NCBI GenBank assembly: GCA_903863935.1
Contig: CAIPDV010000022.1
Coordinates: 1-50,002 of the forward strand
From: an uncultured Bacteroidota bacterium
Lineage (GTDB): Bacteria; Bacteroidota; Bacteroidia; JABEUT01
Direction of reading: 5' to 3'
Length of the DNA: 50,002 nucleotides
The translations under genes were made by a program, and so were the position numbers. Position 1 is the first letter of the stretch; each line of letters begins with the position of its first letter. Shown piece by piece: positions 20,126 to 25,673 of this stretch. A model generated the notes under the pieces. That model was not told the origin of the DNA. It did not search any database and saw nothing but the letters and a program-made list of their open reading frames with translations.

Positions 20126-20572
20126 TTAAGCTTTGGCAGGTTTATTATTGTTTGCATTATCTCCATTTGCATCCACTGAATTGCTTCCGTTATCCGGCGT
20201 ATTATCTTCACCAAATTTCTGGAACGCTTTACTTCCAAATGCCAGCCCAAGAATATAAATCCAGCTTTTATCAATTGTGAAATTTTCAAATGAACCTACA
20301 GTCCATCCAATTTTAATATACATTACGCAAAAAACCAACGTAACTGCAAAAACAATAATGCGCATGGTAGACAATTGGCCATTACTTTCCTGTAACATAG
20401 TGGGAAAAGCAAATGCCATACCCAATAAAATAACTAAGAATGAGGCTGCGGGAAGTGCCCCCTGGTCGAACCCTGAATATTTTGTAAAGCTGATAATTAT
20501 AGCTCCCAGGAACCCAAGTATTCCAAGAATTATTAGGGTTCGTCCAAAATTTGGAAAGGTAATTGATTTCAT
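20126..20572 (-). CDS. four-helix membrane protein, holin-like in layout
   Basis: This 148-residue protein has four predicted membrane helices (TLIILGILGFLGAIIISF, ALPAASFLVILLGMAFAF, MRIIVFAVTLVFCVMYIKI, WIYILGLAFGSKAF) and a polar Asn/Asp/Gly-rich tail (about 120-148). The compact helices and charged tail resemble phage holins, but no holin family signature is recognisable. It lies 18 bases after the OB-fold-like gene and close to a GH24 lysozyme gene, which is the reason to consider a lysis role. That role is an inference only. Confidence 0.6.
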   Translation of the reverse strand: MKSITFPNFGRTLIILGILGFLGAIIISFTKYSGFDQGALPAASFLVILLGMAFAFPTMLQESNGQLSTMRIIVFAVTLVFCVMYIKIGWTVGSFENFTIDKSWIYILGLAFGSKAFQKFGEDNTPDNGSNSVDANGDNANNNKPAKA

Positions 20573-20590
20573 TTTTTTAATTTTTTAAGA

Positions 20591-21175
20591 TTATTTAACT
20601 GCTTTTAAACTTAGTACTGGATGTAGTTCAACGTTGTTATCTGCATGACCGGTTTGACCGTGCGCTTTGTCAACAAAAAGCACGCCCGTTACATCGAAAA
20701 GATGATGCCTGTAACTGGTACCGTATTTATCCATCTCATCACGTGCCTTCTGATAATTGCTGCAATGGCTGGAAGCCTGCGCATCCGGGCAATCCGGATC
20801 CGGTATTTCAACAATCATATGGTTGTTTTTACCATCTTCTATTACAATATGATAATCATTATCCGACTCGCGTTTTACCAGTGTTATTAATACATTATTC
20901 ACTGTATACGCCTGGTTTTCAATAGGAGGTCTTGGTCTGGTTGTGCTGAAATCAACGTTATCAGTATTTTTGGATGTAAGGTCTTTAATGGTTGTAACTA
21001 CCGGTGTAAAATTGATTCCTGTGGTTGAACCGGGCGATAATATTTTTTCATTCCACCATTCCGTACCGCCGCAGGTTTTCGTATTTAAACTTCCGGTTAT
21101 AGTTTCTGAACCAAGAGCAAATAACACGGCGTACATGACACCGCCAATTGCCATTTTTGTTTTTTTGCCTGCCAT
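20591..21175 (-). CDS. exported OB-fold-like protein of a conserved secreted family
   Basis: This 194-residue protein has an N-terminal hydrophobic segment (KMAIGGVMYAVLFALGSETI). Its mature part carries CGGTEWWNEK, YTVNNVLITLVKRESDNDYHIVIED, VEIPDPDCPDA and HGQTGHADNNVELHPVLSL. The spaced pattern C-x-E-W, D-Y-H, IPDP-x-C and HGQTG...E-x-HP recurs in a family of secreted bacterial proteins with an OB-like beta barrel of unknown function. It has one of three shared leader motifs (21199-21216) upstream. The membrane-protein gene follows 18 bases after it. Confidence 0.62.
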   Translation of the reverse strand: MAGKKTKMAIGGVMYAVLFALGSETITGSLNTKTCGGTEWWNEKILSPGSTTGINFTPVVTTIKDLTSKNTDNVDFSTTRPRPPIENQAYTVNNVLITLVKRESDNDYHIVIEDGKNNHMIVEIPDPDCPDAQASSHCSNYQKARDEMDKYGTSYRHHLFDVTGVLFVDKAHGQTGHADNNVELHPVLSLKAVK

Positions 21176-21198
21176 AGTTTAATTTATTCTTTAACTAC

Positions 21199-21216
21199 CT
21201 GTTTTCGGCTTCCCCG
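21199..21216 (-). promoter_or_regulatory. shared leader motif, copy 3 (OB-fold gene)
   Basis: On the coding strand it reads CGGGGAAGCCGAAAACAG, matching 15 of 18 bases of the copies upstream of the lysozyme and collar genes. It lies 23 bases before the ATG. Confidence 0.6.
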
Positions 21217-21225
21217 TTTTTATAA

Positions 21226-21669
21226 TTAACTAAAGTAAAGGTCTGATTCCGCTTTTCTCCTGGTTACTAACCCTTGCAATACCTCACCTCCGGCATGCAC
21301 CCATTTGGCAAATTCATCTGCAATGGTTGGGTCATTCGGATTTGCAATTACTTTTTTGAGGAGTGTTGAACCTTTTAATGCACTAATTCCAAGATTGTAT
21401 GCAAATGAAATTAACGCATCAAACTGGTTTTGATTTACACTTGCAGGAAGAACGGTATTGAGGATATTCTCAATAATGGTAACTGAATTCCGTAATAATA
21501 CCTCCGCCTGATCCTTCGTTATAGTAGCGGTCATAAGCCATTGCTGTGTATCCGTATGAATTAATGTCCCGTATCCAATCGTTGGCAATCCTACTGCATC
21601 TTTATACATGGTTGGCCTGAATCCTTCAAATTGCTCAATCAGTGCTACTCCTTTGCTGCTAATGTTCAT
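21226..21669 (-). CDS. GH24 lysozyme (phage-type endolysin)
   Basis: This 147-residue enzyme cleaves the beta-1,4 bond between N-acetylmuramic acid and N-acetylglucosamine. The catalytic triad of the GH24 family is visible near the N-terminus: Glu in IEQFEGFRPTMYKD, Asp in KDAVGLPTIGYG, and Thr in IGYGT. A C-terminal helical lobe (NQFDALISFAYNLGISALKGSTL) completes the fold. There is no signal peptide, so it would need a holin or other route to reach the wall. No phage structural genes surround it. It has a 52-base leader that is clearly homologous to that of the collar gene at 22077. Confidence 0.93.
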   Translation of the reverse strand: MNISSKGVALIEQFEGFRPTMYKDAVGLPTIGYGTLIHTDTQQWLMTATITKDQAEVLLRNSVTIIENILNTVLPASVNQNQFDALISFAYNLGISALKGSTLLKKVIANPNDPTIADEFAKWVHAGGEVLQGLVTRRKAESDLYFS

Positions 21670-22035
21670 AATTCTAGTTTATTAATTCCGCCTACTCTGT
21701 TTCCGGTTTTCGGCATTCCCGCGTTTTAATTACTAAATATTTTATCTTTTTTCTCAAATACTTATATAATGAATAGATGGTAATAAATTATAAGTTTATT
21801 CCCTTTTATTTATAAATACTTACTATTTATCGCTTTAACGGTTTTGCCTCCTCGATTTTTGCAGCTTCTGAACACAAACATAAATATTTATTTTTATTCA
21901 TGCAACATATATAATATATTTATTTTTAAAATCTATTTAATATTAACGCGAATCAGCTTAATCTTTTTCAGTGTTTTATTGAAGTATAACCCTACGATCT
22001 ATACTTATCTTATGGGGTTTTATTTCTCAAAAAAC
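21670..22035. other. AT-rich intergenic stretch
   Basis: About 365 bases with no supportable gene. The right part is very AT-rich. It contains the lysozyme leader (21670-21721) and a weaker look-alike of the leader motif, CGGTTTTGCCTCCTCG, at about 21839-21854. A -7-like TATTTAG on the minus strand lies near 21732-21740. Confidence 0.5.
21704..21721 (-). promoter_or_regulatory. shared leader motif, copy 2 (lysozyme gene)
   Basis: Coding-strand sequence CGGGAATGCCGAAAACCG, differing at one base from the copy at 22471-22488. It begins 52 bases and ends 34 bases before the ATG, the same distance as in the collar gene. Confidence 0.75.
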
Positions 22036-22067
22036 AACCCGGCATAATTCGGATACTCTGCCGGGTT
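22036..22067 (-). terminator. rho-independent terminator of the collar gene
   Basis: On the minus strand AACCCGGCA pairs with TGCCGGGTT across a 14-base loop and is followed by GTTTTTTG. It lies ten bases past the stop of the collar gene, so that gene is a separate transcript. Confidence 0.8.
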
Positions 22068-22076
22068 TATTTATAC

Positions 22077-22436
22077 CTATTCTTTTATAAGAAAAATAAC
22101 AAAAGAACTAGGTGGCATATTCAACTGATCATCGGTCTGAAGTGTAAACCTGGCATCTTTCCCAATTGCCATTGTGCCGGGGTGATGTTGATAAGGATCG
22201 ACATCGTAGGCTGACCCGGCAATATAATTCGCAGTTGTTCCTCCATGCGAATGAGTAGCTTTGCCGCCGGTTGGTTTGCCAAGCTTTTCAAAGTCTGTAG
22301 TACCCAGCGGAAATTTTCCGTTTAAATCCGGCCTGCCTTCTTTTCCATCACAAATCTTCCATCCTTTCGGTAATTCATTTTTTTTGCCATACCACATCAA
22401 AATTGTACCTTTCGGTAATTCGTCCATACTTGCCAT
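22077..22436 (-). CDS. phage tail collar-domain protein
   Basis: This 119-residue protein carries the tail-collar (MdpB-like) pattern: PKGTILMWYGKKNELPKGWKI, CDGKEGRPDLNGKFPLGT, a His-rich TGGKATHSHGGTT segment, and the closing MPPSSFVIFLIKE. In phages and phage-derived injection devices such domains lie at the tail-fibre or collar. Free-standing bacterial copies also exist. It has its own promoter region, leader and terminator. Its leader is homologous to that of the GH24 lysozyme, tying the two together. No other tail genes are present in the window. Confidence 0.82.
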   Translation of the reverse strand: MASMDELPKGTILMWYGKKNELPKGWKICDGKEGRPDLNGKFPLGTTDFEKLGKPTGGKATHSHGGTTANYIAGSAYDVDPYQHHPGTMAIGKDARFTLQTDDQLNMPPSSFVIFLIKE

Positions 22437-22470
22437 AATTCTTAAAATTTAATTTTGCTTACTCTCTTTA

Positions 22471-22488
22471 CGGTTTTCAGCATTCCCG
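22471..22488 (-). promoter_or_regulatory. shared leader motif, copy 1 (collar gene)
   Basis: Coding-strand sequence CGGGAATGCTGAAAACCG, 34 bases before the ATG. A -7-like GACTTTTG lies about 15 bases further upstream. The bases between motif and ATG also align with the lysozyme leader (AAA.AGAGTA.GC..AATTAA, then AGAATT next to the ATG). Confidence 0.75.
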
Positions 22489-22659
22489 TTTAATTTTCGA
22501 TGACAAAAGTCGTGTGATAGGAACCTTTTTAAAAGGGGGTATTATGCATTTCGTTCATGGGACTTTTCCCATATATAACACTCTGGTATTTAATATTGTT
22601 CTTTCTATCATAAAACCTTTTCTCCTGCTTTGCGTTAGAATAGGAAAGAGTACTCTGAT

Positions 22660-23932: not shown

Positions 23933-25333
23933 TTATCCATCCATTTTTACAATGCGAGGGTAGAAAGTACCAAGCACATCTACAAGATTTTTTTGTGCTT
24001 TCATCACTTCGTGAATATCCTTGTAAGATTGTGGGGCTTCGTCAATGTCGCCACCAATAAGGGTTACACCATTTGCTTCAAGCATGTTTTTCATGTCCTT
24101 GCGGGTGATAGTTCTAAAAGCCTGTCCCCTGGACATAGCCCTGCCGGCCCCGTGCGAAGCTGAATTTAAGGATGCCTCTTCTCCTTTTCCACGAACAATA
24201 AATCCGGGTGCAGTCATAGAGCCGGGAATAATTCCCAATACGCCTTTACCTGCGGGTGTTGCACCCTTACGGTGAACAATAACATCATTTCCATTCCATT
24301 TTTCTTTCCATGCAAAGTTGTGGTGGTTCTCAACAATTGCTAACGGTTCCAAGGCCAAAGCGGATGCAATTTTTTTATGAATGCTATGGTGACAAGCCGA
24401 TGCATAGTCTCCTGAAAGGTTCATAGCAAGCCAGTATTCCATGCCTTCTGCGGAATCTAAACTCAACCATGCCAAATGTTTTGCCTCTTGCGGAAGTCTG
24501 CATTTTTCCATGGCAATTTTGGTGTAATGATTGGCAACATTCGCACCCAATCCCCTGGAACCGGAATGAGAAAGCAATGCTAAATATTTTCCTGCCGGGA
24601 TATTTAACTCCTCTGTAGTTTCATAAATCTCCACTTCCCCAAATTCTACGAAGTGATTACCCGAACCCGAACTTCCCAATTGTTTGGATGCTTTTTGTTT
24701 AAGCCCTTTCAGCAATTCGATTTCATCAAAAATCTTGCGGTCAATAATTTCGTTTTCCTCCGCAACTTTGAATTCCCTTCCTGCTCCAAAGAGTGTATTA
24801 TCCAAAAGGATTTTATACAAACTTCTTTTATCATGAACTGTTTTATCAGGCGAAGTGGGAAAAATACTGAGGCACATTCTGCACCCAATATCAACTCCCA
24901 CTCCATATGGAATAATGGAATTCTCAGTAGCTAGTACACCGCCAATAGGTAATCCATATCCTTGATGTGCATCGGGCAATAAGGCTCCGGCAACCGTTAC
25001 AGGAAGCCTGCTTGCAATCTCCATTTGGTTGATTGCTCCTTCTTCAATGTTACCCGCTCCAAAAATATTGTATTCCTTTTTTTGTACAAGCAAAGGAATC
25101 TCGTCGTTTGCTTCTTTTGGTTTCTCAATTAATTCATAAGCGATTTTTGCAAGAACGGGGTCTTCCAAATATTCTGCCGGTTCCGAAAGAATTTTTTTCA
25201 GAATCTCCAGTGCATTTTCGAAAGAAGTATGCTTATGTGATTTATGCATTACCTGCATGGTAATACCAATAACCTTCCCTTCGGGATAACCAATGTTCCT
25301 CAAATCTTTTCCGCTTAAATTCAGTTTAGCCAT
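23933..25333 (-). CDS. rtcB: RNA-splicing ligase RtcB
   Basis: RtcB joins RNA ends with 2',3'-cyclic phosphate or 3'-phosphate to 5'-OH ends, using GTP and Mn2+, via a guanylated histidine. The 466-residue protein shows the family metal and catalytic motifs: YGVGVDIGCRMC, SGSGNHFVEFGE, LLSHSGSRGLGANVANHY, KGATPAGKGVLGIIPGSM and NSASHGAGRAMSR, whose His (about residue 393) is the expected guanylation site. It is the last gene of a minus-strand unit that begins with rsr and includes six Y-RNA-like and two tRNA-like genes. The first tRNA-like gene lies 28 bases before the ATG. No rtcA cyclase is present. An archease gene is also not in the window. Confidence 0.96.
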   Translation of the reverse strand: MAKLNLSGKDLRNIGYPEGKVIGITMQVMHKSHKHTSFENALEILKKILSEPAEYLEDPVLAKIAYELIEKPKEANDEIPLLVQKKEYNIFGAGNIEEGAINQMEIASRLPVTVAGALLPDAHQGYGLPIGGVLATENSIIPYGVGVDIGCRMCLSIFPTSPDKTVHDKRSLYKILLDNTLFGAGREFKVAEENEIIDRKIFDEIELLKGLKQKASKQLGSSGSGNHFVEFGEVEIYETTEELNIPAGKYLALLSHSGSRGLGANVANHYTKIAMEKCRLPQEAKHLAWLSLDSAEGMEYWLAMNLSGDYASACHHSIHKKIASALALEPLAIVENHHNFAWKEKWNGNDVIVHRKGATPAGKGVLGIIPGSMTAPGFIVRGKGEEASLNSASHGAGRAMSRGQAFRTITRKDMKNMLEANGVTLIGGDIDEAPQSYKDIHEVMKAQKNLVDVLGTFYPRIVKMDG

Positions 25334-25361
25334 GATGTAAATTTATATTAAATTGTTTTTG

Positions 25362-25445
25362 TGGATGCAGAAGGATTCGAACCTCCCAAGCTTTTAGACA
25401 GCGGATTTACAGTCCGCCCCAACACTCCAACGTTGGCGTGCATCC
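25362..25445 (-). tRNA. tRNA-Tyr-like gene (anticodon GUA), non-canonical D-arm
   Basis: The fold has acceptor GGATGCA/TGCATCC, anticodon stem GCGGA/TCCGC with loop CTGTAAA, a long variable region as in bacterial tRNA-Tyr, and T-arm GGAGG/CCTTC with loop TTCGAAT. The D-arm is unusual: base 8 is C instead of the near-invariant U, and the D-stem is CCAAC/GTTGG with loop GTTGGAGT. It could be a working tRNA, a decaying copy or a mimic. The discriminator is A; CCA is not encoded. Confidence 0.75.
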
Positions 25446-25454
25446 ATATATTTG

Positions 25455-25528
25455 CGGTGCCGGACAGATTTGAACTGCCACCGCGGAGATTTTCAATCTC
25501 CCGCTCTACCCATTGGAGCTACAGCACC
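25455..25528 (-). tRNA. tRNA-Phe-like gene (anticodon GAA)
   Basis: A full cloverleaf: acceptor GGTGCTG/CGGCACC, D-stem GCTC/GAGC, anticodon stem GGAGA/TCTCC with loop TTGAAAA, T-arm GGCAG/CTGTC with loop TTCAAAT. Base 14 is C rather than A, and the discriminator is G rather than the A normal for Phe, so aminoacylation is uncertain. It lies eight bases after the last Y-RNA-like unit and nine before the Tyr-like gene. Confidence 0.82.
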
Positions 25529-25536
25529 TTATTAAA

Positions 25537-25667
25537 TTGAACGGGTAACAATGCAATAAGAGACTAATTATATGCTCTACCAACTGAGCTATCCGCCGCA
25601 GGCGGAACAGGAATTGAACCTGTGACCCCATAACCCCGAAGTAACTCTTATTTACGACACCATTCAA
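25537..25667 (-). ncRNA. Y-RNA-like unit 6, permuted tRNA opened at the anticodon
   Basis: Ends TTGAA/TTCAA pair, GGT/ACC follow, then an internal loop with GTCGTA, an eight-pair helix AATAAGAG/CTCTTATT, and TACTTCG (signature at 25637-25658). The head is a tRNA in the order T-arm (ACAGG/CCTGT, loop TTCAATT), closed acceptor hairpin TCCGCC-TGC-GGCGGA, complete D-arm GCTC-AGTTGGTA-GAGC. TATAA/TTATG acts as the anticodon stem, so the Y stem replaces the anticodon loop. Variable loop GGGTC is of normal length. Confidence 0.8.
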
Positions 25668-25673
25668 GAAGTT

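Follow-up and report, generated by a model that had tools for sequence, protein, structure and literature searches.

Four genes on the reverse strand occupy positions 20126 to 22488 of the window, namely the whole 50,002-nucleotide stretch of uncultured Bacteroidota DNA analyzed here. The gene at 22077..22436 encodes a 119-aa collar-like protein; the preliminary description had placed it among tail-collar proteins, which agrees with PHROGs (tail protein phrog_5795, 5.9e-12) but finds weak backing in Pfam, where the match to Collar (0.003) was below the cut-off. On the 3' side of this gene, a terminator-like hairpin (AACCCGGCA/TGCCGGGTT followed by TTTTTT; 22031..22071, reverse strand) was read from the sequence, and a shorter version of it appeared in a hairpin scan, the match count of which was near chance. 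The hairpin suggests that the collar gene may constitute a transcript of its own. The gene at 21226..21669 encodes a GH24 (T4-type) lysozyme of 147 aa (Pfam Phage_lysozyme, 6.6e-39; PHROGs endolysin, 4.6e-48), in which E15, D24, and T30 are spaced as in the GH24 triad, confirming the earlier assignment to GH24. No signal peptide was seen in this protein, its best viral relatives are 56% identical, and it appears to be an intact-looking phage-type enzyme.

The third gene (20591..21175) encodes an exported or membrane-anchored protein of 194 aa, of which homologues with 33-41% identity were found in four genomes (G008, G025, G028, and G200). The family shares C/G/E/W and ELHP motifs and belongs to no named family. 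As this protein had no match in Pfam, PHROGs, or PDB (the last by both single-sequence and profile searches) and the structure predicted without an alignment was too poor to use (pLDDT of 35), the OB-fold label given to it earlier has no firm basis; the model of the collar protein predicted in the same manner was likewise unusable. The last gene (20126..20572) starts 18 bases after the exported-protein gene, has no leader of its own, and encodes a rare 148-aa membrane protein with three to four hydrophobic helices, which had no holin match in Pfam or PHROGs. A defence system was considered and rejected, as the gene set had no match in PADLOC.

The motif CGGGAATGC[CT]GAAAACCG occurs in exactly two copies in the window (22471-22488 and 21704-21721, both on the reverse strand), and the leaders of the collar and lysozyme genes are the only places in the 3.76-Mb assembly where exact copies were found. 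As had been described, the motif ends 34 bases before the ATG of both genes, and the two leaders align over more than 50 bases. When up to three mismatches were allowed, the motif was found three times in the window against 0.10 expected per shuffle, and none of the 100 shuffles reached three. As judged by cmscan, the repeated leader is the known cis-regulatory RNA DUF805b (RF02914) rather than a private motif. The collar leader (22456..22490, reverse strand) scored 39.0 bits, above the gathering score of 35.6 bits, and the lysozyme leader (21689..21723, reverse strand) fell just below it with 34.5 bits (E-value of 2e-7, and of 7e-8 in the scan of the whole genome with RF02914). In the alignments to RF02914, both leaders have the P1 stem and the conserved GAA..GAAAA..AGAGUA bases, and both RNAs end 20 nt before the respective ATG, at 22436 and 21669. 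In the collar leader, P1 comprises 22489-22486 and 22473-22470 (ACGG/CCGU) and the pseudoknot helix P2 comprises 22481-22479 (GCU) and 22459-22457 (AGC), all on the reverse strand; the corresponding strands in the lysozyme leader are 21721-21719 and 21706-21704 (CGG/CCG) for P1, and 21714-21712 (GCC) and 21692-21690 (GGC) for P2.

The preliminary description counted the exported-protein gene as the third carrier of the shared leader. Its 18-mer (21199-21216) has three mismatches, the DUF805b-like element (21176..21216, reverse strand) matched model positions 5-18 only with 13.1 bits, and neither P1 nor P2 can form. We regard this leader as apparently a decayed DUF805b copy; the claim of three shared leaders thus stands for the exact copies of the collar and lysozyme genes but not for the third one. 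The scan of the whole genome yielded a third strong DUF805b-like candidate (G000:C26:40850-40881, equivalent to L235:1500-1531; 26.9 bits), which precedes a gene for a 549-aa pro-kumamolisin/S53-type protease (L397:4901-6550) with no visible signal peptide.

A scan of a public genome collection for exact matches to the 18-mer gave the first sight of a wider pattern. In most of the matches in Bacteroidota and all of those in Fibrimonadaceae, AGAGTARGC and, behind it, a start codon come after the motif; GCC tends to occur together with GGC, and GCT with AGC. The RF02914 model matched in 82 of 296 Bacteroidota genomes, and about 170 elements were collected across Bacteroidota together with their surroundings. 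Among the 122 elements with P1 geometry, in which P1 pairing was demanded by the filter and is hence not independent evidence, full pairing of the NCY triplet that precedes GAAAA with the one that follows GAGTA is seen in 111. The number of pairing elements obtained by shuffling the 3' triplets among elements 5000 times was 49 on average and 67 at maximum, a comparison that does not amount to a strict probability as some elements are from related genomes. Only 1-4 elements pair in shifted registers, and all four Watson-Crick pairs occur at the first position of P2. In the printed structure line of RF02914, the P2 bases are unpaired, so that the covariation in P2 was not built in by the structure of the model. 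The covariation of the P2 triplets (111 of 122 elements against 49 in shuffles) thus shows the DUF805b RNA to be an H-type pseudoknot. The fold consists of a 5' P1 strand (P1 being 3-6 bp), a loop some 4 nt long, the P2 strand NCY, GAAAA, and the other P1 strand, followed by an A-rich linker ending in AGAGUA and the P2 strand RGN. Thermodynamic folding of single leaders was no better than that of shuffled sequences; this is expected for a pseudoknot, which the program cannot model, and provides no independent support for the structure.

Measured from the end of P2, the spacing to the start codon has its peak at 21 nt, with 155 of 167 elements falling within 14-30 nt. About one in five elements (29 of 136) lies 100 nt or less behind a co-directional ORF. 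The sequence TAnnTTTG is the consensus of the Bacteroidota-type -7 box, and such boxes, found upstream of 11 of the other 107 elements versus none of the 29 behind a co-directional ORF, peak at 21-40 nt upstream of P2, which would put the mRNA start close to the pseudoknot. DUF805b therefore appears to work both at the 5' ends of mRNAs and between cistrons, and from these positions it most likely acts on the translation or the mRNA stability of the next gene. The shared RNA-level or initiation-level control proposed in the preliminary description is well supported by the covarying pseudoknot and its fixed distance to the start codon.

The genes downstream of DUF805b are mutually unrelated. Among 143 downstream genes, 14 belong to a bacteriocin-like leader family of Chryseobacterium and seven encode CCPGW putative bacteriocins, and no bacteriocin family was found among the 25 commonest families listed for 143 control genes from the same loci. 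The downstream genes further include those for five S8 peptidases, five proteins with a T9SS tail, four Collar and four DUF2589 proteins, three trypsin-like proteins, two caspases, two DUF805 proteins, and one muramidase besides the lysozyme in the window. By simple patterns, peptides resembling GG leaders were encoded by 23 of 167 downstream genes against two of 143 control genes, and signal-like N termini by 65 of 167 against 27 of 143. Many of the targets are without known function or are not obviously antagonistic (e.g., DUF6520, DUF2589, DUF805, pilins, and SCO4226-like proteins), and no recurring transport or biosynthesis gene that would name a ligand was found among them. Across Bacteroidota, the genes directly behind DUF805b thus encode peptides resembling bacteriocins, enzymes of the cell wall, proteases, and further products that are mostly exported or accessory, and the theme of antagonism is a trend rather than a rule. 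The leader is not special to a lysis set, since the same RNA precedes many unrelated Bacteroidota genes, a finding that the preliminary description itself had named as speaking against its reading; the cassette in the window makes up a minor share of a larger set of genes marked by this RNA.

Tandem arrangements, in which each of consecutive genes has its own DUF805b, were seen at L289 (G111), L327 (G200), L301 (G246), L285 (G264), L279 (G330), and L382 (G266), and cassettes with multiple leaders appear to be a recurring layout. Outside Bacteroidota, the element was observed before type IV pilin-like genes of Fibrimonadaceae (L141, L147, L179, and L197), where the spacer is shorter; it measures 9 nt up to the first ATG, but translation may start elsewhere.

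The membrane protein was found in only two of 395 Bacteroidota genomes, namely that of the window and G200, which belongs to another family. The exported and membrane proteins of G200 are 39% and 56% identical to those in the window, respectively (the latter encoded at L304:2803-3222). At this G200 locus (L304), the genes for a papain-like peptidase and Amidase_2 are followed by an intact DUF805b, the exported and membrane proteins, a TPR-like protein, a Tle1-like phospholipase, and then another DUF805b with a secreted protein. Both genomes have the exported/membrane pair immediately after the gene for a cell-wall hydrolase, and the leader occupies the same position. The loci differ in that the hydrolases are unrelated (an amidase in G200 and a lysozyme in the window), the leader is intact in G200 but decayed in the window, and no collar gene is present in G200. 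The hydrolase, the leader, and the pair may therefore represent a rare recurring module, seen in two genomes only. The leader pattern was absent in three relatives of the exported protein, and, among the loci examined, it was found only in the genome of the window and G200; this ties the leader to the joint occurrence of the exported and membrane proteins rather than to the exported-protein family as such. In G266, DUF805b, an N-acetylmuramidase, and small membrane proteins stand in a row. Several kb downstream of the G200 module, a DarT/DarG-like toxin-antitoxin pair was recognized by reading (L380:8567-10236), which suggests a variable or defence island.

Within the genus, the cassette was found only in this genome: ten other genomes, several of which are incomplete, had no close match to any of the four proteins, and the sole relative is the exported protein of G008 (35% identical). 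This distribution is consistent with acquisition of the genes in this lineage. Upstream of xerC, where an empty site was looked for, the relatives in the genus differ among themselves. A phage origin of the leader was rejected, as it was found in none of the 80 phage lysozyme loci scanned. The membrane protein was absent from viral contigs and from phage and plasmid records, and the 18-mer was found in viral contigs only inside unrelated sequence. The contractile sheath (PF04984) that would point to a contractile tail or injection system is absent from the assembly (98% complete), while it is present in three of 14 control genomes. A prophage remnant was also rejected, as no phage genes lie beside the set and no sheath was found in the genome. 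Elsewhere in the window (23933-29192), we recognized by reading alone an RtcB-like ligase (23933-25333), a tRNA (25455-25528), a Ro60/TROVE-like protein (26386-27903), and a WYL-type regulator (28080-29192), a gene group that resembles an RNA-repair locus.

Altogether, we propose that DUF805b, standing some 20 nt before the start codon, is probably a pseudoknot switch and that, in this genome, the genes marked by it are a horizontally acquired set, coding for phage-derived and exported proteins with a likely part in extracellular or envelope attack. A ligand or an RNA-binding factor would be the signal by which the pseudoknot switches or tunes the translation, or the mRNA survival, of the gene that immediately follows. 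The set in this genome would comprise the collar gene as one unit and the genes for the lysozyme, exported protein, and membrane protein as the other, with the kumamolisin-type protease marked elsewhere. The proposal builds on the observed RNA class, covarying structure, spacing, and genomic distribution, to which it adds a putative signal shared by the collar and lysozyme units; co-regulation of the entire set is not assured, given the score of the lysozyme leader just under the gathering score and the decay of the exported-protein leader. The most likely role of the set would be attack on the cell envelope or on extracellular targets, in which the membrane protein may help the signal-less lysozyme across the membrane or protect the producer. 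Lysis or killing by the set is plausible: the phage-type lysozyme looks intact, the exported/membrane pair recurs next to a different cell-wall hydrolase, and the regulon is enriched in bacteriocin-like peptides and contains hydrolases.

Other explanations for the leader were weighed against this proposal. It is possible, albeit not our preference, that DUF805b is a riboswitch for a small metabolite or a second messenger that gates ribosome access, and that its mixed regulon reflects a physiological state such as surface growth or stress instead of antagonism. The compact H-type pseudoknot, the conserved loops GAAAA and AGAGUA, and the fixed distance to AUG all suit a riboswitch, the unrelated downstream genes are reminiscent of those under global second-messenger riboswitches, and pilin genes are among the targets, but no transport or biosynthesis gene recurs to name the ligand. 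Somewhat unlikely in our assessment is that an RNA-binding protein docks at the leader, or that the leader constitutively stabilizes the 5' end or enhances translation, allowing accessory genes to be expressed in new hosts. Such a role would account for an element that accompanies genes of patchy distribution (present in 82 of 296 genomes) and is also found between cistrons, whereas the unpaired loop bases are strongly conserved, which points to specific recognition more than to stability alone.

The preliminary description raised the possibility of a phage lysis or release cassette that was domesticated and has a control of its own; the affinity of the GH24 lysozyme to phage endolysins is in its favour, as is the membrane protein, which adjoins a cell-wall hydrolase in both genomes that have it. 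We consider it improbable, as the leader is not private to the set and is missing from all 80 phage lysozyme loci, the genome lacks a contractile sheath, and searches of viral contigs and phage records gave no match to the membrane protein. Phage holin-endolysin cassettes likewise combine a GH24 endolysin with a small membrane protein nearby but differ from the window, where no holin family is matched, an extra exported protein lies in between, no phage genes surround the set, and the leader is one that phage lysozyme loci do not carry. That the likeness of the leaders stems merely from the duplication of one leader-gene segment, with no function, is hardly credible: the collar and lysozyme leaders are indeed very alike over more than 50 bases, but they differ in a pairing-consistent manner (GCU/AGC versus GCC/GGC), and the same RNA with compensatory changes precedes non-homologous genes across the phylum.

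The leaders in the window agree with the DUF805b RNA (RF02914, clan CL00115) in sequence, P1 stem, and cis position before unrelated Bacteroidota genes; P2, revealed here by covariation, is not drawn in the printed structure line of this model, and the targets in the window are the collar and lysozyme genes. PreQ1-I and SAM-II are small H-type pseudoknot riboswitches, and DUF805b calls them to mind as a compact 5'-UTR pseudoknot just upstream of a start codon, although Rfam reports no sequence match to them for the leaders in the window. As Bacteroidota rarely use Shine-Dalgarno pairing, the expression platform of DUF805b must differ from those of preQ1-I and SAM-II.

No functional study of DUF805b was found in the literature searched. 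The window thus adds a new set of targets to a known but unexplained RNA class, together with a structural addition and a trend in its targets. For this orphan candidate regulatory RNA, the pseudoknot, the spacing rule, and the list of targets enriched in bacteriocin-like peptides make a switch testable, and the laterally gained lysozyme, exported protein, and membrane protein would come with their own expression control. In a broader version, which we hold with considerable doubt, DUF805b would be the shared translational switch of a regulon for exported antagonism that answers to one signal, and mobile cassettes, that of the window included, would carry the switch between genomes. If this is true, a single pseudoknot would control bacteriocin-like peptides, proteases, cell-wall hydrolases, and collar proteins.
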